Positions 12,229 to 23,527 of a stretch of 64,000 bases of DNA are shown piece after piece. A program made the position numbers and the translations under genes. The DNA comes from Pseudarthrobacter sp. ATCC 49987. GTDB lineage: Bacteria > Actinomycetota > Actinomycetes > Actinomycetales > Micrococcaceae. The notes beneath the pieces are model-generated. The model saw only the letters and a program-made list of their open reading frames with translations. It searched no databases and had not been told where the DNA came from. The DNA lies in assembly GCF_009928425.1 (NCBI RefSeq), contig NZ_JAABNS010000001.1, positions 372,001 through 436,000 of the forward strand, read 5' to 3'. The stretch's first letter is position 1. Each line of letters opens with the position of its first letter.

Positions 12229-14445
12229 TTACTTAACCCCGGCCCCCGGCAAGAGTTCCTTGGCGCCCAGGGAGTCGGCGACGAAGGCGTAGTCCCACGC
12301 GCGTTCCTTCCACTGCACGTAGCGGCCCGAGGCGCCGCCGTGGCCGCCCTCCATCTCGATCTTCATCACGATCGTCTCGCTGCCGGTGTTGAGTTCGCGC
12401 AGCCGCTGCACCCACTTGGCGGGCTCCACGTAGAGCACCCGGGTGTCATTAAACGAGGTGACCGCCGCGATCTTGGGGTAGGCCACCGCGCGGACGTTTT
12501 CGTACGGGGTGTAGGACTTCATGTACTCGTACACGGCGCGGTCGGTGATTGGGTTGCCCCATTCCTCCCACTCCAGCGCCGAGAGCGGCAGTTCGGGATC
12601 CAGGATGGTGGTCAGGGCGTCCACGAACGGGACGGCCGCCACGATCGCCGCGTACTTCTCCGGTGCCAGGTTGGCCACGGCGCCCATCAGCAGGCCGCCG
12701 GCCGAGCCGCCCATGGCCGCGATCCGTGCCGGGTCCACCCAGCCGGACTGCGCCAGCCAGTCCGTGGCCGCGATGAAGTCCGTGAAGGTGTTCTTCTTCT
12801 GCAGCTTCTTGCCGGTGTCGTACCAGTGCCGGCCCAGCTCCCCGCCGCCGCGGATGTGGGCGATCACGAACACGATGCCACGGTCCAGCAGGGAGAGCCG
12901 GGGGATCCCGAAGCTGGGATCCATGCTCATCTCGTAGGAGCCGTAGCCATACACCAGCCCGGCCGCCGTGGAATCGCGGGCCACCGAGGCGTGCCGCAGC
13001 ACCGAAAGCGGGATCCGGGTCCCGTCGGACGCCACCGCCCACTCGCGGGTGGCGACGTAGTCGGCGGCCGAGTAGCCGCCCAGGACGGGGCTTTCCTTGC
13101 GCAGCAGCAGTTCGCCGGCGGGCAGCTCCGCGGTGGGCAGCACAAAGTCGTAGACCCGGGACGGCGTGAAGTAGGAGGTGTAGCCCATCCGGATTACCGG
13201 GGCCTCGTAGTCGGAGCCGGCGACGCCCGCGGTGTAGAGCTCCTCCTCGAAGGCCGGCTCCACCGGCGCGCCCTGCTCCGGCGTGCCCAGGCCGGCCAGC
13301 GGCAGGACCTGCACGCGCTCGATAGTGTCCTTGCGGATGGAGACCACCAGATGCGTCGAGGTGACCCCGGCGCCGTTGACGCGCACCTGGTCGGAGTGTT
13401 CGACGACGGTGGTCCAGTGCTGCTCGGCGAGCGGTTTGGCGAGCTCGGCCGGGTCCACGAGGGAGACCATGGAGTTGATGGCGTCCCTGTTGTGGGTCAG
13501 GACGATGGCCTCGGCCTGCTTCCCTGCGGCGTCGGCCAGCAGGAACGGCTCGGCCTCGTAGAGGATGCGCTCGTCCCGGGAGATCACGGTGCTGAGTCCG
13601 GCGTCGAGCGCGTCGAAGCGCAGCAGGCGGGTCTCGCTGAATTCCGAGCAGCCGATGCCCAGCACCAGGTGGCGCCGGTCGGCGGAGAGCTCGAAGCCCA
13701 GCCACATGGCGACGTCGTCCTCCTGGTAGATGACCACGTCCCCCTCGACGGGCGTGCCGAGGACGTGGGCCTTGACCTGGTAGGGCCGCCAGGCGTCATC
13801 CACCACGGTGTAGAAGATCCGGGTGCCGTCGGGGGAGAAGGAGATGCCGTAGAAGACGTTCTCGATCACATCGGGAAGGAGCTCCCCGGTCCGCAGGTCC
13901 TTGATGCGCAGCGTGAACCGCTCGTCGCCGGCGTTGTCCACGGCGTAGGCGTAGAGGTTCCCGTCGATGGTCACGGCGGCGCCGCCGACGGCGAAGAAAG
14001 GCTTGCCCTCTGCCTCGACGTTGCAGTCCAGCAGGATCTCCTCGCCGGGGATGTCGACGCCGACCTCGACGGCGGGGGGAGTCCAGTCGGCGATGCGGTC
14101 ACCGGTGTCCTGGGCCCGGACGCGGCACTGGATGCCGTACTCCTTCCCTTCCACGGAGCGGGTGTAATACCACCAGCCGTCCTTGCGGTTGGGAACGGAG
14201 AGGTCCGTCTCCTGGGTGCGGCCCTTGATCTCCTGGAAGATGGCCTCGCGCAGCGGTTCCTGGTGGGCCGTCACGGCCTCCTGGTAGGCGTTCTCGGCCT
14301 TGAGCAGCTCCACGACCTCCGGGGATTCCTTGTTCCGCAGCCATTCGTAGTTGTCCTCGAAGGCGTCACCGTGGTGCGTGCGGACGGCAGGGATTTTCTT
14401 GGCCACGGGGGGCTGCGGGGACGGCTGCACGGGAGTCTGGGTCAT
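12229..14445 (-). CDS. ptrB: Oligopeptidase B (S9 prolyl-oligopeptidase family)
   Basis: 738 residues: an N-terminal seven-bladed beta-propeller and a C-terminal alpha/beta-hydrolase. It cleaves short peptides after basic residues in the cytoplasm. Catalytic S581 lies in GGSAGGLLMG and H702 in EGGHGGASGRY; the family Asp lies between them, in the RVLYVEPAKW region. The IAHIRGGGELGRHWYDTGKKLQKKNTFTDF block is characteristic of PtrB. No signal peptide. A single-gene unit whose stop borders a perfect palindrome. Confidence 0.93.
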   Translation of the reverse strand: MTQTPVQPSPQPPVAKKIPAVRTHHGDAFEDNYEWLRNKESPEVVELLKAENAYQEAVTAHQEPLREAIFQEIKGRTQETDLSVPNRKDGWWYYTRSVEGKEYGIQCRVRAQDTGDRIADWTPPAVEVGVDIPGEEILLDCNVEAEGKPFFAVGGAAVTIDGNLYAYAVDNAGDERFTLRIKDLRTGELLPDVIENVFYGISFSPDGTRIFYTVVDDAWRPYQVKAHVLGTPVEGDVVIYQEDDVAMWLGFELSADRRHLVLGIGCSEFSETRLLRFDALDAGLSTVISRDERILYEAEPFLLADAAGKQAEAIVLTHNRDAINSMVSLVDPAELAKPLAEQHWTTVVEHSDQVRVNGAGVTSTHLVVSIRKDTIERVQVLPLAGLGTPEQGAPVEPAFEEELYTAGVAGSDYEAPVIRMGYTSYFTPSRVYDFVLPTAELPAGELLLRKESPVLGGYSAADYVATREWAVASDGTRIPLSVLRHASVARDSTAAGLVYGYGSYEMSMDPSFGIPRLSLLDRGIVFVIAHIRGGGELGRHWYDTGKKLQKKNTFTDFIAATDWLAQSGWVDPARIAAMGGSAGGLLMGAVANLAPEKYAAIVAAVPFVDALTTILDPELPLSALEWEEWGNPITDRAVYEYMKSYTPYENVRAVAYPKIAAVTSFNDTRVLYVEPAKWVQRLRELNTGSETIVMKIEMEGGHGGASGRYVQWKERAWDYAFVADSLGAKELLPGAGVK

Positions 14446-14619: not shown

Positions 14620-15858
14620 ATGGAGCCACACATGAACGGCCGGTCGTTTCGCAAGATCTCAGTTGCGTTAGCGGCCACAGCAGTACTCGTCACAGGGTGC
14701 CAATCGGGGAACGCCAGCAACCCGACACTCTCACCCACCGCTTCCGGCACGGCACCAGCATCGGGTGCAGCCGCAGCACCGGCAACGGACATCCCCCACC
14801 ACAAGGACGGCGGCCTCATCATGGCCGATTCCCTGCCCCACGGGAGCGATCATCCGGTGGACATGTCCCCGCAGCAGATCTATGGGGTCGGCGAACAGGC
14901 GGTCTTCGCCATCGAGGGGCGCCGCCCGGACGACTTCCTGGGGTTCGGCACGGGGTTCCTCGTCGACAAGGAGGGAGGCATGGGTGTCACCAACGCGCAC
15001 GTCGTGGAGGGCCTGGCCGCGATTTCCGGTCGCTTCAACAGCGGCGAGAAAGCTGCGCTCCACGTCATCGGGTCGGACCCGTGCTCTGACATTGCCGTGG
15101 TCCACTTCTCCTCCCCGCTGCCGGAAAAGTCCGATGCTGTCATTTTCGGCAACTCCGCTGACGTCAAACCCGGGGACACCGTCACTGTTCTTGGCTATCC
15201 GGATACCCTGACCCAGAGCCCCTCGGAACAGAAACTGCTCATTTCCTCGGGCCTCGTCAACGCGACCAACGTGGCGGCCCGCCCCCCGGGATTGCCCGAA
15301 TACAAGGACACCATCCAGCACGGGGCGACCATCAACTACGGCAATTCGGGCGGCCCCTTGCTCGATCACCACGGCAGGCTGGTGGGGATCAACACACTGA
15401 CTAATCCAGGCACGCCGGGCGCGCCCGTGCAGGGCCAGTTCTATTCGATCGCCATTGACTCGGCCAAACGGGAGATCGTGGACAAGCTGCTCAAGGGCGA
15501 GTCTCCCAACAACATGGGATGGGCGGTCGAGGAGTACTACCCCGGCTACTTCAAGTCCCTGGACCGCGTCAAGGGCCCTGCTCTTGACGCGCAGCTGGCC
15601 AAGGCGGGCGTGCAGGGCGGCCTGTACGTCAAGGCGGTCACCCCGGGCTCGGGAGCCAGCAAGGCCGGGATCCAGTCCGGCATGCTGGTGACGAAGTTCC
15701 AGAACACGTCCACCTACACCATCGCCGAGATGTGCGCTATTTCCGAGTCCATTCTTCCCGGCTCGGCAGCCGAGGTCGAAGGGTTGTATCTCCTCTCGGA
15801 ACCCTCAAAATTCAGCACTCCGTTCAAGGCTGAATTCGTTGTCCCGGGCAAGCACTGA
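14620..15858 (+). CDS. Trypsin-like HtrA/DegP-type serine protease, lipoprotein with PDZ domain
   Basis: 412 residues. The N-terminus is a lipoprotein signal with lipid-attachment C27 (ATAVLVTGC), then a low-complexity linker. The chymotrypsin-fold domain has the triad H127 (TNAHVVEG), D157 (CSDIAVVHF) and S243 (YGNSGGPLLD). A C-terminal PDZ-like region follows (VQGGLYVKAVTPGSGASKAGIQSGM). It probably handles damaged proteins on the outer face of the membrane. GAGGAGG lies just before the ATG. It converges on the Hsp70/dynamin module, which may be chance. Confidence 0.9.
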   Translation: MEPHMNGRSFRKISVALAATAVLVTGCQSGNASNPTLSPTASGTAPASGAAAAPATDIPHHKDGGLIMADSLPHGSDHPVDMSPQQIYGVGEQAVFAIEGRRPDDFLGFGTGFLVDKEGGMGVTNAHVVEGLAAISGRFNSGEKAALHVIGSDPCSDIAVVHFSSPLPEKSDAVIFGNSADVKPGDTVTVLGYPDTLTQSPSEQKLLISSGLVNATNVAARPPGLPEYKDTIQHGATINYGNSGGPLLDHHGRLVGINTLTNPGTPGAPVQGQFYSIAIDSAKREIVDKLLKGESPNNMGWAVEEYYPGYFKSLDRVKGPALDAQLAKAGVQGGLYVKAVTPGSGASKAGIQSGMLVTKFQNTSTYTIAEMCAISESILPGSAAEVEGLYLLSEPSKFSTPFKAEFVVPGKH

Positions 15859-15903: not shown

Positions 15904-17754
15904 TTACCACTTCGTCGTCCACCACTCGTGCAGCCTCGGCACATCCGCGCCGGCGGACACCGCCCGGTACTCCACGAGCGAGTCCTGGTCATTCCACACC
16001 AGGTAGTTCTCCCCGTCCTTCGAGGCACCCAGGATCCGGCCCTTGACCGCCGAGTCCCCCCGTGACCAGTCCTGCCAGCCCGGTGGGTTCTCCGGCGCCC
16101 GTTCGGCTGCCCCGTACTGCTGGACCAGGTCATCAAACGCGGCGTTCATCGCGTCTGCGGTGGCATATCCGTAGACGGAGATCTGCGGTTTCTCCATGGC
16201 GTTGAAGCCGCTGTCGGCGGGTGGCTCGCAAACAAGTCCGAAACTCGCTGCCACCAGGTTCTTGTTCGGCGCGCAGCTGTCCGGGGACACTTGGCCGCGG
16301 GAGGCTGCCGTGGTGAGCAGGGTGCATTCGCCGTCCGTCAGTCTGGGCCGCACCTCGCCCGCGCACTTCCTGGACGTCGGCGCCTGGGACGTGGCGCTGG
16401 ACAGGGGATTGGGCGGGAAAGGGAAACCGCCCGCCAGCGCGATCGCGGTCCCGAGCAGCACCACTGCCGCGCTCACGCCGCCTCCGATCAGGATCCGCTT
16501 GGTAAGCCGCGACGGCTTCCTGCCGCGTGGAGGGGCGGCTGGAACATCCGCACGCTGATGCCCGACGGCGGCACCCGGCTGGTCCGCACCGTCACCGGCA
16601 CCCGCGCCGTCGGCCCCGCCAAGAGCAGCGTCCGCGCTTCCTCCAGGGCCCGCAGAGATCCCGCTCGACGCCGGCGCCTCCAGTGCCCCGACGCTGGTGA
16701 TCTGTTTGGGATCCCCCATCAACCCCAGTTTCATCGGCAGGATTTCCCCGAGCCGGGCCTGAAGCGCCGGGATGTGGCTGGACCCGCCGGTGAGGTAGAC
16801 CCGGTGGAGTTGCTGGGACGAGGGCAGCGCCTCCTGGATGACCCGCTGGACCAGTTCCACGGCACGGCCGATCTGGCCGTCGATCAGTTGCTCAAACTCG
16901 GCGCGGGTCACGGTGCAGACCCATTCGTGCCCGCCAGAGCGGACACCGATGGGAGCCGCCCCGTGGAAGCTCAGGGCATGCTTGGCTTCCCGCACCTGGT
17001 CCTTCAGCGCGGCTTTGTCGGCGCTGGAACGCTCTGACGCCAGGCCCTGCAGGAGGTTCGTCTTTCCTTCGGCGGCGAGCTGTGCGTAGACCCAGTTCTC
17101 CAGTTGTGCATCGAAGTCATGCCCGCCCAGGGGGTCGATGCCGGCCGAGGCCACAACGCGAAAGGCCCGCCCGTCGGGGGTTTCGGCGAATTCCAGCACT
17201 GCGGCGTCGCAGGTGCCGCCCCCGAAATCCAGCACGGCCACGTGCGCGCCCACGCCGACGTCGGAGCTGGCCGCATAGTGCCAGCCGGCCGCGATGGGTT
17301 CGGCCATCAGGACGATGCCTTCTTCCGGGATGCCGGCCTTCACCGCGGCGGCGGACAGGCGGCCCTTCAGGTATTCGTCCCAGGACTCCGGGTGGGTCAG
17401 GACCACCTCGAACGGGAACCCGCCGCCCACAAAGCGGATGGCCTGTCCGACGACGAACCGCAGTACCGCTGCGACGAGGTCGACCGGATCGAAGACGGCG
17501 TCGCCGAGCACCACCGCATCCTCGCCGAGGCGGCGCTTGGGCGTCGGTTCGAACGCCGCGGGGTAGATGCCCGCGATTTGGCGTGCGGCGTCGCCCGTGA
17601 GGATCTCACCGTTGTAGGCGGCCACGCAGGAAGGGATGGCGTCCGAGCGCGTGCCCAGCCTGAGAACAAGAGCGCTGCCGGCTGCCGGCGCGACGGCGGC
17701 TGCCGTGTTTGAGGTCCCGAAGTCGATGGCCAATCGCCAGGGGATTTCCTCCAT
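15904..17754 (-). CDS. Membrane-anchored Hsp70-family ATPase without a substrate-binding domain
   Basis: 616 residues. Residues 1 to about 360 form an Hsp70/actin-fold ATPase: phosphate-1 loop AIDFGTSNTAAAV, phosphate-2 AVLDFGGGTCDAAVLE (about 173-188) and adenosine loop RVYLTGGSSHIPALQARL (about 318-335). In place of the usual peptide-binding domain there is a low-complexity linker (about 361-410), a basic stop, one transmembrane helix (about 421-441) and an external domain of about 170 residues with several cysteines. The ATPase therefore sits inside and the tail outside. It follows the dynamin-like gene on the same strand; AAGGAG precedes its ATG. Such Hsp70s beside dynamins occur in actinobacteria, but their role is unknown to me. 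Confidence 0.88.
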   Translation of the reverse strand: MEEIPWRLAIDFGTSNTAAAVAPAAGSALVLRLGTRSDAIPSCVAAYNGEILTGDAARQIAGIYPAAFEPTPKRRLGEDAVVLGDAVFDPVDLVAAVLRFVVGQAIRFVGGGFPFEVVLTHPESWDEYLKGRLSAAAVKAGIPEEGIVLMAEPIAAGWHYAASSDVGVGAHVAVLDFGGGTCDAAVLEFAETPDGRAFRVVASAGIDPLGGHDFDAQLENWVYAQLAAEGKTNLLQGLASERSSADKAALKDQVREAKHALSFHGAAPIGVRSGGHEWVCTVTRAEFEQLIDGQIGRAVELVQRVIQEALPSSQQLHRVYLTGGSSHIPALQARLGEILPMKLGLMGDPKQITSVGALEAPASSGISAGPGGSADAALGGADGAGAGDGADQPGAAVGHQRADVPAAPPRGRKPSRLTKRILIGGGVSAAVVLLGTAIALAGGFPFPPNPLSSATSQAPTSRKCAGEVRPRLTDGECTLLTTAASRGQVSPDSCAPNKNLVAASFGLVCEPPADSGFNAMEKPQISVYGYATADAMNAAFDDLVQQYGAAERAPENPPGWQDWSRGDSAVKGRILGASKDGENYLVWNDQDSLVEYRAVSAGADVPRLHEWWTTKW

Positions 17755-17889
17755 GTTGGCTCCTTAAGTCCACGTTCCCCCGCACGTGAGTAGCCGGGGC
17801 AGGGCGCCAGGGCGAACCCGGGGCGGGAATCGCCGGTCCCCAACCCATAGTGTGCTCCCGCATCCGTGCATCGCGGTAGTCCCGGGCAG

Positions 17890-17925
17890 CCTGACCGTGG
17901 TGCAGGCCCCTGACCGTGGTGCAGG
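17890..17925. repeat. 17-bp tandem direct repeat after the dynamin-like gene
   Basis: Two copies of CCTGACCGTGGTGCAGG, 2 bp apart (period 19), ending directly at the dynamin-like gene's stop codon. Origin is unclear; it may reflect slippage duplication. Confidence 0.55.
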
Positions 17926-19617
17926 TCAGAGGTGATGGAGGTGTGCCAGGCTCTCATCGATTTCCGCGACTTGCTTGTCGATCGTGGCGACTTCGCGTTG
18001 GAGTTCCTCAATGCGCCGCTGCGACTCCTCGGCAGAGAGCCGTTCCTGGGCCTGGCTCTCCTGGATGAGCTGCTGAAGTCCGCCCAAAGATGCCTGCAGC
18101 TGGGTGCGGTAAGTGACCACCAGCTCGGGCTTGAGCCTGCGCACCCGGGCGTCCAGATAGTCCGCAATCACCGCGCGTTCCAGCTGGGCGAGTCGAGGGA
18201 CTTCCGCCTGCAGCCGGGTTCGCTCCAAGACGTTCTGGCGGTAGTACCGGTTGAACGCAAACCAGCCGCCGGCTCCAGCGACTGCCAGCGGAACGGCGGC
18301 GCCCGACACGGCGACACCGAGCAGGCCGGCGATGGAGGTTCCGATGCTGGATCCCATCACCACCGACATCACCACGGTGGGATCGAAGCCGGCCCCGCGC
18401 CGCTCGCTGCCAAGGTGCGGCTGGTCGGCGGGGGCACCGGCGGCACTGAGTAGCTCGTTGAGCACCGCCGGCAGCGGAACCTCGCGGAAGAATCCGTGGG
18501 TGAGAATGGCCAGCCGCTCCTCGGCTTCCGCGATGAGGTCGGCGCGCAGTGCCAGGAGTTCAGCGATCATGTCGCTGCTCAGTTGACGCATCTTTTTCTG
18601 GTCCCGGAGTCCCCGGGCCGCCTGGATCCGGTTCCGCCACAGGGAGATCCAGTCGTCAAACGCCGCGGCGGCGCTGCGCAGGACACCCGCGCGGAGTTCC
18701 CCGAGGTCCCTTTCCAGGTCCAGGGCCCAGCGCTGCTGCTCCTCCTTCAGCTCCGAGAACCGCTGCCGCTCGGCCAGCATTCCCGCCCGGGTTTCTGCCG
18801 GCGCACCGGCCACAGCCAGTTGGGTGAGCCGGGCCCGGCGGTAGCCGTCCAGCGCTGTCCGCGCCAAGCGGAGCGCGTTGGCTGTGGGGGCCAGGCCGGC
18901 GTGGGCAAGTTCCGTTTTCAAGGCCTCCACGAAGCGGGAAAGTCCGGAGGCGGCCAGGAGTTGGTCGCGCACGGCCGGATCCGTGGCCGTGGCCGCAGCC
19001 GCAGCAGTGACGGGCGAAACGCCAAGCACGAACGTGTCCGCGAGCCGGGGAATCCGCGCCCGGAGCAGGGCCGCGTTGCCGGCGGCGACGTTCTGCCAGG
19101 AGCCCGGAAAGAGGTCAGTCTTGGTGATGACTATGCCCAGCGATTCCACCTGGGCCGAGCATTGTTCCAGGTAGGCCAGCTCGCCGCTGGACAGCTGGGC
19201 GCCGGCGTCAGTGACAAAAACGGCGAGCGATGCCGCTTCCAGGAACTTCAGGTTGAGCTGCGACTGGGGTGCGTCCAGGCCTCCCGGGCTCGGGGCATCG
19301 AGCAGGACCGCGTCACCGAGCAGCCCCTTTCCTCCGGCCGTGTCCGGCGTAACCAGGCGGTAGAGGGCCTCTCCTGCTGCGTCGGCATCCCGGCCCGCCA
19401 GGTCGGGTGCCAGCAGGTTGACCAGTGAGGTCTTCCCCCGGCCGCTCTCGCCGAGAAAGACGACGACCGGAGCGTGGCCGACGTCCGTGGCCTGCCGGAT
19501 GGCCCGGTCGGCGGCGTCGGGATATCCGACCGAGCGCAGCAGGCGGGTAGAGGTGCTGAGCACTGCCCGGGCCGAGGCCAGGGCGGCAAGCTGCGGGACC
19601 TCAGTATTGGACGTCAT
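17926..19617 (-). CDS. Dynamin-like GTPase with membrane-inserting hairpin (IniA/DynA type)
   Basis: 563 residues from the ATG at 19617, which overlaps the end of the upstream acidic gene by 17 nt; the longer frame from 19770 only reads through that gene. The GTPase domain has P-loop GESGRGKTS (56-64), a G3-like DAPSPGG (107-113, not canonical DxxG) and G4 TKTD (165-168). A long helical region follows, then a glycine/alanine-rich hydrophobic double segment (about 425-465, VVMSVVMGSSIGTSIAGLLG ...) that could insert into membrane. A C-terminal coiled coil comes last (about 510-563). The layout matches bacterial dynamins such as IniA. Partners are probably the Hsp70 downstream and the second GTPase at 20619. 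Confidence 0.85.
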   Translation of the reverse strand: MTSNTEVPQLAALASARAVLSTSTRLLRSVGYPDAADRAIRQATDVGHAPVVVFLGESGRGKTSLVNLLAPDLAGRDADAAGEALYRLVTPDTAGGKGLLGDAVLLDAPSPGGLDAPQSQLNLKFLEAASLAVFVTDAGAQLSSGELAYLEQCSAQVESLGIVITKTDLFPGSWQNVAAGNAALLRARIPRLADTFVLGVSPVTAAAAATATDPAVRDQLLAASGLSRFVEALKTELAHAGLAPTANALRLARTALDGYRRARLTQLAVAGAPAETRAGMLAERQRFSELKEEQQRWALDLERDLGELRAGVLRSAAAAFDDWISLWRNRIQAARGLRDQKKMRQLSSDMIAELLALRADLIAEAEERLAILTHGFFREVPLPAVLNELLSAAGAPADQPHLGSERRGAGFDPTVVMSVVMGSSIGTSIAGLLGVAVSGAAVPLAVAGAGGWFAFNRYYRQNVLERTRLQAEVPRLAQLERAVIADYLDARVRRLKPELVVTYRTQLQASLGGLQQLIQESQAQERLSAEESQRRIEELQREVATIDKQVAEIDESLAHLHHL

Positions 19618-19966
19618 CGCCGTCGCCTGGGGCCTCGTCCCCGGAGTTCCAGCCATCGGAGCCGGACTCGTCGCCGTCGAACGGCTGATCCGGCGTGGCC
19701 GCGAAGCCGTATCCCGGCCCCCCGTCCCCGCCGGGATCATCGTCGTCGGCGTCTGGATCATCCCCGTCATGGTCGTCGGCGTCGAAGTCGGCGTCTGGAT
19801 CGATTCCGACGGCGGCTGCGGCGACGGCGGGGGAGGCGCCGTCCGGGCCGTCCTCCTGTCCGGCGGCGAAGGTGGCCTCCAACGCGCGTTCCCAGACGGC
19901 GGCCGGCGGCCCTTCGGGAACCAGCAGCATTTCTTTCAGCGAGATTTCAGGGACTTCGTGGCTCAT
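19601..19966 (-). CDS. Small Asp-rich protein heading the dynamin-Hsp70 operon
   Basis: 121 residues. The first 35 look folded (SLKEMLLVPEGPPAAVWERALEATFAAG); the rest is extremely acidic (DPDADFDADDHDGDDPDADD and similar). No signal peptide or membrane helix. AGGAGG stands close upstream of the ATG. The end overlaps the dynamin gene by 17 nt, so translation is probably coupled and the product likely works with that GTPase. The N-terminal part could be a docking helix and the acidic tail a cation-binding or repulsive linker (inference). No family recognised. Confidence 0.7.
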   Translation of the reverse strand: MSHEVPEISLKEMLLVPEGPPAAVWERALEATFAAGQEDGPDGASPAVAAAAVGIDPDADFDADDHDGDDPDADDDDPGGDGGPGYGFAATPDQPFDGDESGSDGWNSGDEAPGDGDDVQY

Positions 19967-20076
19967 TTTCCTCTTCCTCCTGTGTAAGGGTGGTCGAACA
20001 TTTTGTGCGGGTCTATAGTGGCCCTAATATCGGCTAGTGCGGGGGGCACGGCGACCTGAACCCGAGTGGGGGACGC

Positions 20077-20607
20077 ATGGACGCGACCGTGGCCCAGAGG
20101 CAGCTGTTGGATGCCGCAATCCGGGGCGATGAAAAGGCTTTTGAGGCCCTGGTGACCGAGTCCCGGACCATGATCTGGTCGGTCTGCCTGCGGATCACCG
20201 GGAACACCTACGACGCCGAGGACGCCCTGCAGGACACCCTGCTGGCTGCGTGGCGCGGGATGGGGAATTTCCGCCGCGAGTCCGGCTTCGGGACGTGGGT
20301 CTACAAGATTGCGGCCAACGCGGCGTTGACCATTGTCCGGGCCAGGAAGAGCACCGAGGTCGAGGTGGACGAGACGTACTCCCCGGAACGCGACTTCGCC
20401 GAAAGGCTCGCGGAGGCTGACCTGGTCCAGCAGGCGATGAAGACCATGCCGGCGGATTTCCGTGTGGCCCTGGTGCTGCGGGAGCTGTGTGACTTCACGT
20501 ATGCGCAGATCGCCGATTACCAGGGCGTGGGGGTGCCCACGGTGAAGACCAGGATCAGCCGCGCACGGCAGGCTTTCGAGGCCGCCGTGACCTCCGGTGT
20601 TGCGTAA
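20077..20607 (+). CDS. ECF-type RNA polymerase sigma factor
   Basis: 176 residues with sigma region 2 (FEALVTESRTMIWSVCLRITGNTYDAEDALQDTLLAAWRGMGNF) and region 4 (MPADFRVALVLRELCDFTYAQIADYQGVGVPTVKTRISRARQAF). No region 3, as expected for ECF factors. It is divergent from the acidic/dynamin/Hsp70 operon and convergent with the second dynamin gene. No anti-sigma factor is encoded next to it, so control is by another route, perhaps through the module itself. The two matching promoter arrays at 22072 and 22970 are its likely targets (inference from position and motif type). Confidence 0.92.
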   Translation: MDATVAQRQLLDAAIRGDEKAFEALVTESRTMIWSVCLRITGNTYDAEDALQDTLLAAWRGMGNFRRESGFGTWVYKIAANAALTIVRARKSTEVEVDETYSPERDFAERLAEADLVQQAMKTMPADFRVALVLRELCDFTYAQIADYQGVGVPTVKTRISRARQAFEAAVTSGVA

Positions 20608-20618
20608 CCTCCCGCCCG

Positions 20619-22037
20619 TCATGGCCGGCTCCCGGCAGTTCCGGAACGGATCAGCAGGGAACGGGCGATGACCCTGGCAGCCCGGGCCTCTGCGCCCGTT
20701 GATGCGGTGGAAACCATCGACTGATAATGGGCGGCCAGCCCCAGGTAGCCGCTGCTTCCGGAAATATCCGGCAGAACTCCGTCCAGTTCCGGATCATCCC
20801 GGGTAAGGCCCTGCAGCACCGCCACCATTTCATGCCCGGGGGCGTCCGCTTTCAGCAGGTCCAGCGCGGCTTCCTCGTGCAGGCGGTGAAAGGCCGGGGC
20901 ATGCCGTGCCGCTTCGATCAGGCGACGCGCGTCAGCGGGCCAGGACCGGGAGCGCGCTGCAGCCAGGAGGCCGGTGAGCATCCCGTCCACGCGGGCACTT
21001 TCCGTCGGGCCGATCACCGCCGATTGCAGGGTCCGTTCCAGCGCTGCCAGTCCGGACCGTTCGTGCAGCCACCGGGTGAGCTGCCCGGCAGATCCGCACT
21101 GCTCCCTTCCATATCTGATTCCGTACGGTCCGATCAGTCCGGTGAGCCGCAGGAAATCCTCCCCGGACACCTCCGGGGGAGCGCCCAGCTGGTCGGCGAA
21201 CTGGAGACGCAGATCGTCCGCTCCCTGCAGCAGGCGGAGATTCCGCACGTCCTGTTCGCGCAGCGCCCCGGTCTGCACCGTTTCGGCGAGCAGGGCCGAG
21301 ACGGGAAGCACGGCGGTGAGCTGCGGCATCCTGCCGGAAAGTTCGGCTGCGGCCGTTTGGGCCTGGTCCACCGGCTCCGCCCCGTGCCACGGGCCGCCGC
21401 CGAAGTTATCGGCGTGTGCCACGAGACCAACCACGGTGGATCGCCCCGGTCCGGCGCCGGGGCGGGCCTTGAACCGGGCAATGAATTCCTCATCGTCCGG
21501 GCGGAAGGAGTCCCGGACCAGGTAGAGCAGCGCGTCGGGGCTGTCCGGATCTGTGCCCCCCAGCATCCGGGCCTCGGTCCGGCGCGAATTGTCCGTCGCC
21601 GCCGAGCCCAGCCCGGGGGTGTCCACGATTGTGGCGGGCCGCAGCACGGCCGCCTGCACGTGGACCTGCAGGTAATCGATGGTCTCGGGGGGGATATCTT
21701 CCAGGACCGGCCCGGATCCGGTGAGCGGTACCGGCACCACATTCCCGGTGTCCAGCACGGCTTCGGCGCGGGCCGGCGAACCGTAGACGTAGCGGCACAG
21801 CAACGCGGTGGTTTCCTGCGTTGAGGTGGGCGCCAGTTTGGCGCTGATCAGGCTGTTCACCAACGTCGACTTGCCCGTATTCACCCGGCCCGTCACCGCA
21901 ATGACGGCCGGACGCCGGAGCGCGGTCCGGAAATCGGCAATCACCCGGCCGCCGGACAGCCCCAGCAGCGTATCGACGTCGTCCAGCAACTGCTCCGCGC
22001 TGGAGCGAAGGCCCGAATGGCCCTCGGGAGCATTCAT
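20619..22037 (-). CDS. Second dynamin-family GTPase (soluble, IniC/DynB type)
   Basis: 472 residues from the ATG at 22037 (AAGAGG just upstream). The GTPase domain has P-loop GRVNTGKST (50-58), switch-II DTPGLGS (139-145) and a degenerate G4 (AHAD, 207-210). The C-terminal half is helical, without a convincing membrane segment or paddle, as in the partner half of bacterial dynamin pairs. It is on the same strand as the first dynamin operon but separated from it by the divergently oriented sigma gene. The intergenic region before its start contains one arm of the two-way promoter (GGGAAC-N18-ATCAAAC read on the minus strand), so it is probably co-regulated with the acidic repeat genes. Confidence 0.85.
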   Translation of the reverse strand: MNAPEGHSGLRSSAEQLLDDVDTLLGLSGGRVIADFRTALRRPAVIAVTGRVNTGKSTLVNSLISAKLAPTSTQETTALLCRYVYGSPARAEAVLDTGNVVPVPLTGSGPVLEDIPPETIDYLQVHVQAAVLRPATIVDTPGLGSAATDNSRRTEARMLGGTDPDSPDALLYLVRDSFRPDDEEFIARFKARPGAGPGRSTVVGLVAHADNFGGGPWHGAEPVDQAQTAAAELSGRMPQLTAVLPVSALLAETVQTGALREQDVRNLRLLQGADDLRLQFADQLGAPPEVSGEDFLRLTGLIGPYGIRYGREQCGSAGQLTRWLHERSGLAALERTLQSAVIGPTESARVDGMLTGLLAAARSRSWPADARRLIEAARHAPAFHRLHEEAALDLLKADAPGHEMVAVLQGLTRDDPELDGVLPDISGSSGYLGLAAHYQSMVSTASTGAEARAARVIARSLLIRSGTAGSRP

Positions 22038-22071
22038 GGCCGAACCTCTTTTCGGGTGGACGTCTTTATCC

Positions 22072-22154
22072 GTTTGATGCCCGCGGCGGCGGAAATGTTC
22101 CCGGAAGATCCAATTTTCTTTTTGGGAACTTTTCGGGGGCCCGGGGCCTCTAAT
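22072..22154. promoter_or_regulatory. Two-way ECF-type promoter region, copy 1
   Basis: Minus-strand elements are GGGAAC (22102-22097), 18 nt, then ATCAAAC (22078-22072), pointing to the dynamin gene. Plus-strand elements are GGGAAC (22124-22129), 18 nt, then CTCTAAT (22148-22154), pointing to the repeat-protein gene at 22206. GGGAAC with an A/T-rich -10 is the general form of ECF promoters. The same four elements with identical 18-nt spacers recur at 22970-23051. Confidence 0.7.
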
Positions 22155-22205
22155 CACCATCAGCAAAACAGGGAGCAAGAGCTTCCACTACATAAGGAGA
22201 TCATC

Positions 22206-22439
22206 ATGTACGTCAACGCAACAGTTCTCGCGGAAGTAGATCGCAGTGGCGACGGCTGGGTCGACTGGATCGCCGGCGACACCAACGGCGACCGGATCGC
22301 GGACGTCTTCCTGAAGGACGACAACTTCGACGGGTATTTCGAAACCATCGGCTACGACTTCAACGAAGACGGCTGGCTGGATCAGGAGCAGGTGGATATG
22401 AACGGTGACGGCTACATCGACACCGTTCTCTACTACTAG
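22206..22439 (+). CDS. Small D-x-N-x-D-G repeat protein 1
   Basis: 77 residues consisting almost wholly of five units of the form D-x-[NDS]-x-D-G-x-x-[DE]: DRSGDGWVD, DTNGDRIAD, DDNFDGYFE, DFNEDGWLD, DMNGDGYID, spaced about 12 residues apart. Such loops bind calcium in EF-hands, dockerins and thrombospondin type-3 repeats; binding here is inferred. No signal peptide or membrane segment. TAAGGAG precedes the ATG. First gene behind the plus-strand arm of promoter copy 1; the next repeat gene follows after 55 nt. Confidence 0.8.
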   Translation: MYVNATVLAEVDRSGDGWVDWIAGDTNGDRIADVFLKDDNFDGYFETIGYDFNEDGWLDQEQVDMNGDGYIDTVLYY

Positions 22440-22494
22440 TCGCAGCAGTCATAAACGCATCAGCACATCCCTTCCCATTCTTAAGGAGAGCATC

Positions 22495-22854
22495 ATGTCA
22501 CTGGAAGCTTTTACATTCATCGATACCAACGGCGACGGCCTCGGAGACTTCGGCGGCGCTGACCTCAACGGCGACGGCATCCTCGATGCCTATGCCCTCG
22601 ACAGCAACTTCAACGGCGTGGTCGATCAGTACGCCGAAGATGCCAACCAGGACGGCTTCCTGGACAGCGTCTTCATCGACAACAACGAAGATGGAGTCTT
22701 CGAGTCCGCCATCTGGGATTCGGACGGCGACGGCGTCATGGACAGTTTCCTTGAGACCGTCAGCCAGGACGGGACCGACCCGGGATCATCGGAGGCCGGG
22801 CAGGCCACTGACCCGTCACCGACTCTCTTCCAGGCCGGGTTCAGGGGCCCCTAA
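22495..22854 (+). CDS. Small D-x-N-x-D-G repeat protein 2
   Basis: 119 residues from the ATG at 22495, preceded by AAGGAGAG; the longer frame from 22405 is rejected because it overlaps repeat gene 1. Six repeat units cover residues about 9-88 (DTNGDGLGD, DLNGDGILD, DSNFNGVVD, DANQDGFLD, DNNEDGVFE, DSDGDGVMD), followed by a Ser/Pro/Thr tail ending FQAGFRGP. Unit by unit it matches protein 3 at 23108, including the odd third unit with N in place of D, so the two are recent duplicates. No export signal. It ends at a perfect hairpin. Confidence 0.8.
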   Translation: MSLEAFTFIDTNGDGLGDFGGADLNGDGILDAYALDSNFNGVVDQYAEDANQDGFLDSVFIDNNEDGVFESAIWDSDGDGVMDSFLETVSQDGTDPGSSEAGQATDPSPTLFQAGFRGP

Positions 22855-22869
22855 CCCCAATGGACAACC

Positions 22870-22900
22870 GAGAGGGTGCGCACCATGTGCGCACCCTCTC
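22870..22900. terminator. Hairpin after repeat gene 2
   Basis: Perfect 14-nt arms GAGAGGGTGCGCAC / GTGCGCACCCTCTC around CAT. An almost identical hairpin follows repeat gene 3 (23497-23527). Confidence 0.8.
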
Positions 22901-22969
22901 GCTGTGCCCGGAGCTTTCCGCCGGAGCAGTGCCGCCGCACGCGTGGACAGTGCAGGCACACTCTTGTCA

Positions 22970-23051
22970 GTTTGATGCTGCCGAGGGCCGGAAAGTTCCC
23001 GGAAAATGACGCTCGTTTGCGGGAACTTTAAGCGGTTCCGCGACCTCTAAT
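22970..23051. promoter_or_regulatory. Two-way ECF-type promoter region, copy 2
   Basis: Same elements as copy 1. Minus strand: GGGAAC (23000-22995), 18 nt, ATCAAAC (22976-22970). Plus strand: GGGAAC (23021-23026), 18 nt, CTCTAAT (23045-23051), followed by a shared CATCAGCAAA leader. The plus arm serves repeat gene 3. The minus arm points into the terminator and 3' end of repeat gene 2, so it is either a duplication relic or gives antisense RNA. Confidence 0.7.
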
Positions 23052-23107
23052 AGTCATCAGCAAACAGGCAAAGGAAGCCCCCGCTTCCCCTTCAGAAGGA
23101 GAACATC

Positions 23108-23473
23108 ATGTCACTCGACGGATTTATATTCATCGATACCAATGGCGACGGCATGGGCGACCTGGGCGCCGGCGACGCCAACGGCGACGGCATCTTCGAT
23201 ACTTATGCCTTCGATATCAACTTCAACGGCGTGATCGATCACTATGCCTCAGACGCCAATCAAGACGGCTTCCTGGAGCTCGTCATCGGTGACAACAACG
23301 AAGACGGAACCTTCGGTGCCAGGTTCTGGGATTCCAATGGCGACGGCGTCATCGACAGTTCGGCTCAGACCGTCGAGGACGGCGGCAAGTACGGAGGGCC
23401 AACGGTGGTGGGCCCCGCCACAGACCCGGGACCTGAACTGACTCTGATCTACGCCGGTTACAGGGCCTTCTAA
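23108..23473 (+). CDS. Small D-x-N-x-D-G repeat protein 3
   Basis: 121 residues with six repeat units (DTNGDGMGD, DANGDGIFD, DINFNGVID, DANQDGFLE, DNNEDGTFG, DSNGDGVID) and a tail ending LIYAGYRAF. A paralogue of protein 2 with its own copy of the promoter, leader, AGAAGGAGA ribosome-binding site and terminator. This shows that a complete expression cassette was duplicated. The fifth unit has lost its last acidic ligand (TFG). No signal peptide; a cytoplasmic Ca2+- or cation-responsive protein is the simplest reading. Confidence 0.8.
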   Translation: MSLDGFIFIDTNGDGMGDLGAGDANGDGIFDTYAFDINFNGVIDHYASDANQDGFLELVIGDNNEDGTFGARFWDSNGDGVIDSSAQTVEDGGKYGGPTVVGPATDPGPELTLIYAGYRAF

Positions 23474-23496
23474 GCCAGGCTTCGGGGGATCAGCTT

Positions 23497-23527
23497 GAGA
23501 GGGTGCGCACCATGTGGGCACCCTCTC
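23497..23527. terminator. Hairpin after repeat gene 3, shared with rfbA
   Basis: 14-nt arms GAGAGGGTGCGCAC / GTGGGCACCCTCTC (one mismatch) around CAT. It abuts the stop codon of the convergent rfbA gene and so ends both transcripts. Confidence 0.75.

Follow-up and report, generated by a model that had tools for sequence, protein, structure and literature searches.

A conserved dynamin–Hsp70 locus with Asp-repeat proteins and a probable sigma factor of its own in a soil actinobacterium and on plasmids

Why would a soil bacterium keep a pair of dynamins, an Hsp70 ATPase, a sigma factor and a set of tiny repeat proteins side by side? The question is raised by a 64,000-nucleotide stretch of Pseudarthrobacter sp. 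ATCC 49987 (contig NZ_JAABNS010000001.1, positions 372,001–436,000; hereafter the window), for which an earlier note had proposed that such genes form one undescribed system. All the genes that it named are present: a membrane-anchored Hsp70 ATPase, a membrane-type dynamin (DynB) and a soluble one (DynA), an acidic protein, an extracytoplasmic function (ECF) sigma factor and three Asp-repeat proteins (rep1–rep3). An HtrA-like serine protease, absent from that list, is a further member of the set (Table 1). Our preferred reading, held at roughly even confidence, takes the locus for an inducible, self-contained membrane module that has an ECF sigma factor of its own, is related to the iniBAC-Hsp70 operon and differs from it in control and in repeat protein. 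Bacterial dynamins of the IniA/IniC type have so far lacked clear physiological roles and partners. Here the pair is joined by an energy-using partner (Hsp70, with GrpE in relatives), by repeat proteins and by a probable dedicated sigma factor, so the question of dynamin partners and signals becomes directly testable; the probable regulon of that sigma factor is tiny and easily read, and the hosts are a soil genus and plasmids of soil bacteria.

We looked for the set in 206 genomes of the genus, the window's own included, and found a DynA orthologue (threshold E 1e-60) in five. All five clusters (the window, L037, L060, L061 and L062) keep the order and orientation HtrA–Hsp70–DynB–acidic–sigma–DynA–repeat gene(s), with protein identities of 49%–76% for HtrA, Hsp70, DynB, sigma and DynA; copies of the HtrA-like protease in the other four clusters are 63%–75% identical. 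In L060 the repeat gene is separated from DynA by other small genes, the repeat-likeness of the L062 repeat gene is weak, and three clusters carry extra sigma copies or fragments. The surroundings vary: of the window's flanking genes (E 1e-20), only two, LytR-like and phosphatase-like, recur near another cluster, that of genome G059. Four clusters lie on contigs longer than 4 Mb and the fifth, in genome G172, on a contig of 190 kb, where transposase-like genes adjoin it by our own reading of the sequence.

The promoter-like sites of the locus proved to be closely confined to it. The pattern GGAACTTT-N14..18-CTCTAAT stands before rep1 and rep3 and nowhere else in the 4.4-Mb genome. Across the 206 genomes, GGAACNTT-N16-TCTAAT gave 15 sites in six genomes, all at cluster genes or within 7 kb of them, against a single site for the reversed control. 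These six are the five cluster genomes and G227, and a sigma gene is adjacent in every one (that all five cluster genomes fall among the six has P = 2e-9 when kinship is ignored). A sister site, GGAACNTT-N15-ATCAAAY, occurred six times in five genomes (control 0): five times at the cluster, in four genomes, and once elsewhere (G201). In four clusters its first base is 58–64 nt upstream of the start codon of DynA; in the fifth, the TCTAAT form takes its place, 90 nt upstream of DynA. Because the motif is confined to genomes with the cluster or its sigma gene and its sites lie near cluster genes, it suggests that the ECF sigma factor runs this locus, which is probably regulated as one unit.

The −35 boxes of the window stand back to back, 23 nt apart between DynA and rep1 and 22 nt apart before rep3. 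Given the same paired geometry at both places, the control region of rep3 resembles a copy of the one between DynA and rep1; the strong terminator-like hairpins after rep2 and rep3 are also nearly identical to each other, which suggests that a unit of promoter, repeat gene and terminator was duplicated in tandem. Distance from site to start codon goes with gene type, at 80–86 nt for repeat genes and 105–115 nt for a second small protein family. This family (YRYSDFYCYMSLADFTAYI-like, ∼48–55 aa, with a longer reading in L077) stands behind the same promoter in four of the six genomes. Nine leaders of repeat or weakly repeat-like genes have in common a 6-bp stem before the ribosome-binding site, with changes on both sides at four of its six pairs. 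On this covariation we list a leader stem-loop as a tentative feature; single-sequence folding of the two window leaders gave nothing unusual (z −1.4 and −0.9).

The set also recurs on plasmids. In tblastn searches of 72,556 plasmid records, the window's DynA matched 36, mostly from Rhodococcus, Prescottella and Gordonia, and a Rhodococcus DynA matched 37, 33 of them with at least 56% identity. Many of these records are near copies (12 of the 33 come from one species), so they do not count as independent observations. A sigma relative lies 2.6 to 11.0 kb from DynA in 32 of these 33 close records. Sigma as query (E 1e-30) found 35 records. DynA stood without sigma in one record (NZ_CP096038), and sigma without DynA in three; in the one of these that we opened (L105), genes for GrpE, Hsp70 and a repeat protein adjoin sigma. 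The window's sigma factor is 47%–48% identical to those of Rhodococcus and Gordonia plasmids.

Eight actinobacterial plasmid loci, from Rhodococcus and Gordonia, were opened (L100–L105, L107 and L109; L101 nearly duplicates L100, and L102 and L104 are close to each other). All eight have Hsp70 (by annotation) and Asp-repeat proteins (truncated at the edge of the locus in L100 and L101), and an acidic protein with a PxxxWxxxL-type N-terminus adjoins sigma in all except L105. The −35 element recurs there: GGGAAC[ACT]TT occurs 21 times in 202 kb of plasmid relatives against once for its reversed form, and 12 of the 21 sites lie at most 300 nt upstream of a listed gene, D-repeat, acidic, Hsp70 and DynB genes among them. 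On Gordonia plasmids the same element precedes MspA-family porin genes (L102 15574 (−) and L104 23177 (−)), so the regulon there may include outer-envelope channels. Scattering of these genes among relatives, which would have spoken against the earlier proposal, was therefore not what we found. That the genes form one system stands in the sense that they are one conserved set, judged by gene order, common promoter-like elements and plasmid recurrence.

What do the individual proteins add? The Pfam match of the Hsp70 covers the ATPase domain and stops at profile position 351 of 599; a single transmembrane (TM)-like stretch at residue 421 and a C-terminal domain of ∼150 residues follow, in agreement with the earlier description of an Hsp70 without peptide-binding domain. 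Four Cys of the C-terminal domain are invariant among the five orthologues, and the basic residues that precede the TM segment suggest that this domain faces outside. The structure model is poor overall (predicted local distance difference test score, pLDDT, 57.6), with the C-terminal domain folded at better confidence. DynB has the P-loop GESGRGKT and a TM-like stretch at residue 429; its sole PDB match at E 0.01, and so its nearest solved relative, is IniA (6j72; E 1.7e-7). Its mechanically called open reading frame (to 19770) is too long, because the likely start at ∼19617 overlaps the acidic gene. DynA has a P-loop and the motifs DTPG and AHAD and no TM-like stretch, so the pair does combine a membrane-type and a soluble dynamin. 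The HtrA-like protease matches Pfam Trypsin_2 (E 2e-23; motifs TNAHV and GNSGGPL) and, under that family's cut-off, NCBIfam degP_htrA_DO (E 1.6e-38).

The sigma factor is short, with Pfam region 2 at E 4e-16 and region 4 at E 2e-13. The acidic protein (net charge −32) matches no Pfam or NCBIfam family, those of anti-sigma factors included, and the absence of an anti-sigma factor holds for the named families searched in these two collections. The coupling of the acidic protein to the first dynamin needed amending. Its gene does overlap that of the dynamin in most same-genus clusters, the window's included, but on plasmids it is the neighbour of sigma in seven of eight loci, which points to a sigma partner; by position, its tie to sigma is no weaker than its tie to the dynamin. 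We tried a profile of its N-terminus as a phylum-wide measure and set it aside: it found the window only among 178 genomes, and it is too narrow, since plasmid relatives exist.

Counts of D-x-[ND]-x-[DN]-G are 3, 6 and 6 in rep1, rep2 and rep3, against shuffle means of 0.10–0.15 and maxima of 2, 3 and 3 (1000 shuffles each), and the period is exactly 13 residues (10, 12 and 10 lag-13 Asp pairs against 2.2–2.9 in shuffles). The earlier call of three small proteins built of D-x-N-x-D-G-type repeats is well founded on both measures. The proteins are probably cytosolic, because they have neither a TM-like stretch nor a visible signal peptide. An AlphaFold model of rep2 (mean pLDDT 69.7) predicts one strand per repeat and finds no fold match in the PDB at E 0.001. 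Thrombospondin type 3 repeats are Ca2+ loops with D-x-[ND]-x-D-G-x-x-D-like spacing, and this spacing, also that of dockerin and EF-hand loops, is present in the window repeats. They differ from all three in their strict 13-residue period, in the predicted strand and in falling below family cut-offs: no EF-hand or other Ca2+ family could be assigned (EF-hand 10–18 bits against cut-offs of ∼25). The spacing is consistent with proteins that bind a divalent cation and are of a Ca2+-binding type.

Two further proteins appear in relatives. Four of the five clusters encode a GrpE-domain protein between Hsp70 and DynB, all four above the Pfam cut-off; three have a strongly hydrophobic N-terminal stretch, and the called gene of L062 has none. 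A membrane GrpE profile had no match in the window genome at E 1e-8. Its spread elsewhere in the phylum was considered and rejected: eight of 178 genomes matched at E 1e-8, seven of them in the GrpE part only (37–42 bits), which we take to be ordinary GrpE, and the eighth, G522, was in the query. The second is a C39-like peptidase with two Asp-repeats, found in G059 behind a weaker promoter site. C39 occurs in 27 plasmid records, all among the 37 DynA records and one of them, from Anabaena, distant; the Anabaena C39 as query gave the same number.

How does the locus relate to known systems? Among paired bacterial dynamins, the DynA/DynB of Streptomyces sporulation come to mind; to our knowledge these have no accompanying set of Hsp70 and sigma factor. 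Closer is iniBAC, described in PMC5760070 as a cell-wall stress operon under IniR that answers cell-wall inhibitors; in M. smegmatis a dnaK-like gene adjoins iniR, and excess production of IniB has been proposed (PMC5760070). IniA carries out membrane fission in vitro (PMC6715688). Taken with the dnaK-like gene, iniBAC has the same kinds of parts as the window, namely IniA/IniC-type dynamins, a membrane Hsp70-like protein, an acidic or repeat-rich partner and a dedicated regulator. It differs in having the ATPase regulator IniR where the window has an ECF sigma factor and an acidic protein, and IniB where the window has 13-residue Asp-repeat proteins, whereas HtrA is added here and GrpE or C39 in relatives. 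The dynamins are only ∼25%–32% identical (DynB 25%–32% to the IniA-like genes of L038–L056; DynA 29%–32% over ∼240–370 residues to the second, IniC-type dynamin there).

When the window and the four related clusters were searched by tblastn, neither three IniB N-termini nor the L038 IniR-like protein had a match; the IniR query gave one weak match on plasmid L103, to the DNA-binding end of IniR. An Hsp70-IniR-IniB-IniA-IniC operon was read in two genomes of the genus, and its IniA-type gene is present in 100 of the 206, including G172, itself a cluster genome. We considered mutual exclusion of the cluster and iniBAC and do not claim it (IniA gene in one of five cluster genomes and in 99 of 201 others; P = 0.37). 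Judged from these comparisons, the module appears to be a new variant of dynamin–Hsp70 modules that keeps the dynamin–Hsp70 core and changes the regulator and the repeat protein. Our literature search found no description of the whole gene set, in line with the earlier claim that it was undescribed as one system.

We can propose how such a module might work. A partner protein would hold sigma, and the small acidic protein is the likeliest candidate. A surface signal, read by the outer domain of the Hsp70 and/or by HtrA, would change the state of the tethered Hsp70 ATPase, for which the GrpE-domain protein would be the exchange factor in most relatives. Freed sigma would transcribe the repeat genes and DynA from the paired back-to-back sites; DynA and membrane-bound DynB would form the usual two-dynamin machine and, by analogy with IniA, remodel or seal the membrane. 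The repeat proteins, probably abundant, would bind a divalent cation and assemble at damage, as IniB may in iniBAC. The Hsp70, with or without GrpE, could be the switch or motor of the dynamins; if so, this would give a new role to an Hsp70 that lacks its substrate-binding domain. A more specific and rather improbable form of this proposal concerns breaches that let Ca2+ in: while cytosolic calcium is low the repeats would be unfolded, on Ca2+ entry they would form stiff beta-sheets and mark or plug the spot, the dynamins with their Hsp70/GrpE motor would close the membrane, and the ECF sigma factor would refill the stock. If this is true, prokaryotes would possess an unrecognised membrane repair or immunity system of this design that moves on plasmids.

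Several observations weigh against a sigma-controlled stress module. In the window the acidic–DynB–Hsp70 genes, sigma and HtrA have no strong site of their own, and the link between sigma and motif, tight as it is, is an association. The −10 parts on plasmids differ from TCTAAT and between genera, so that the −35 element alone is common, and in the Rhodococcus plasmid locus L100 even this stands at DynB only, with none at C39, acidic–sigma or Hsp70. The window cluster has no GrpE (172 bp separate Hsp70 and DynB), which makes GrpE either dispensable or lost there. The module is rare, at 5 of 206 genomes in the genus and 1 of 197 in a family sample (the window itself), and a phylum search found a DynA relative in 2 of 396 (the window and the distant G522; E 1e-50). 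G227 has sigma and a repeat gene and no DynA at E 1e-60; on its 7.5-kb contig, sigma (78% identical) and the repeat gene are accompanied by a partial HtrA-like gene. Finally, residence on plasmids is as compatible with defence or transfer as with stress.

Defence is the alternative that survives best. The locus would then be an anti-phage or anti-element conflict system, with sigma, Hsp70 and GrpE setting the threshold and the dynamins (plus C39 in relatives) acting as effectors on the membrane or in cell killing; we regard this as possible, if unlikely. Its best arguments are three: the systems of Kaur et al. 2020, the DO-GTPases of an Anabaena plasmid, and toxin- and nuclease-type plasmid neighbours. 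Kaur et al. 2020 (PMC7159879) treat GTPase systems with Hsp70, GrpE and peptide-binding-domain-less Hsp70 as conflict systems, and the DO-GTPase/GAP1 systems there, often membrane-linked GTPases with Hsp70, GrpE and an Hsp70 lacking the substrate-binding domain, in actinobacteria, have parts similar to ours. The window differs in its dynamins, its own ECF sigma factor and its repeat proteins. Neither DO-GTPase nor GAP1 had a Pfam match among the window proteins scanned, and the words "dynamin" and "C39" have 0 occurrences in the main text of PMC7159879. The plasmid of Anabaena sp. 90 (pANA01; L108 1–10470) carries Hsp70, two DO-GTPases, a C39 peptidase with two Asp-repeats and a dynamin pair, with no annotated sigma factor within the stretch seen.

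The module is borne by plasmids of varied type, whose annotated neighbours include a PemK/MazF toxin gene and a PDDEXK nuclease beside sigma, with RES and HEPN-associated proteins further off. In a same-phylum genome outside the window's class (L083 6047–11359), Hsp70 and a GrpE-domain protein stand beside a fusion of a CHAT-like domain (by our own reading) with a DynA-like GTPase. No C39 or CHAT gene was found in the window cluster itself. PADLOC reported no system among the seven cluster proteins scanned, a scan that did not extend to the neighbours; its matches were to dynamin, AAA/GTPase and protease models (best 1.9e-17, to the protease domain of RT-protease), and the weak LeoA match of DynB (1.5e-8) is a general dynamin likeness. 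A search of 50,697 phage records brought up no relative of DynA, which says little, and the 41 pattern stretches in viral contigs included no relative. Overall, we prefer membrane repair or stress over defence.

It is improbable that the locus came from plasmids as an aid to conjugation or plasmid upkeep and is now also chromosomal, with dynamins and Hsp70 that would ready the envelope for DNA passage. It is present on many large Rhodococcus and Gordonia plasmids, and of the 37 DynA plasmid records 22 are typed mobilizable and one conjugative; the other 14 are typed non-mobilizable, and the opened records span MOBP, MOBF, MOBF with MPF_T and non-mobilizable plasmids. Transfer systems differ among rhodococcal plasmids (PMC6852188), and we recognised no transfer gene among the called genes of the same-genus clusters, where no dedicated search was run. 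Least probable, and already disfavoured, is a divergent iniBAC-Hsp70 copy with unrelated repeat genes adjacent by chance: homology of the dynamin pair and Hsp70 to that operon speaks for it, but the repeat genes are kept in all five clusters and all eight opened plasmid loci with common promoter elements, and the IniB N-terminus and IniR are missing from the window by tblastn.

Table 1. Positions of the genes and sites of the locus in the window, with a small protein family of related loci in the last row
Feature	Position	Strand	Remarks
HtrA-like serine protease	14620..15858	+	lipoprotein-type N-terminus, weak PDZ; first gene of the cluster, conserved
Hsp70 ATPase without substrate-binding domain	15904..17754	-	one TM segment, C-terminal domain with four conserved Cys
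DynB, IniA-like bacterial dynamin with membrane segment	17926..19617	-	PDB search, P-loop, TM-like stretch
Acidic protein, conserved N-terminus GPPxxVWxxAxxxA, possible sigma partner	19601..19966	-	overlaps DynB
ECF sigma factor	20077..20607	+	Pfam regions 2 and 4
DynA, IniC-like soluble dynamin-type GTPase	20619..22037	-	
ECF-type promoter-like site before DynA, GGAACATT-N15-ATCAAAC	22072..22101	-	
ECF-type promoter-like site before rep1-rep2, GGAACTTT-N16-TCTAAT	22125..22154	+	
Leader stem-loop before the rep1 ribosome-binding site, tentative	22171..22186	+	both-side changes at 4/6 pairs, nine leaders
rep1, 13-residue Asp-repeat protein, 77 aa	22206..22439	+	
rep2, 13-residue Asp-repeat protein, 119 aa	22495..22854	+	
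Terminator-like hairpin after rep2	22870..22900	+	-31.1 kcal/mol, z -7.4
Second leftward promoter-like site, no gene seen facing it	22970..22999	-	
ECF-type promoter-like site before rep3	23022..23051	+	
rep3, 13-residue Asp-repeat protein, 121 aa	23108..23473	+	
Terminator-like hairpin after rep3	23497..23527	+	-26.4 kcal/mol, z -5.3
Second small protein family	L060 12348-12515; L061 ~17050, 18524; L062 1880-2026; L077 ~5654	L060 +; L061 -, -; L062 -; L077 -	

Some neighbours of the related loci deserve mention. A lipoprotein-like family is frequent beside the plasmid loci (L100 4622–5881, L102 4214–6649, L105 12375–13667 and L109 13780–15072); it was recognised by Pfam DUF7373 in L100 and by similarity in L102 and L109, and the L105 copy is near identical to that of L109. 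The window cluster showed no member of this lipoprotein-like family. Two same-genus clusters have putative neutral zinc metallopeptidases (Pfam PF04228) nearby (L060 869–1906 (−) and L061 15743–16669 (−)), and a DUF805 membrane protein lies near the L060 cluster (12691–13143 (+)), with a similar-looking one in L061.

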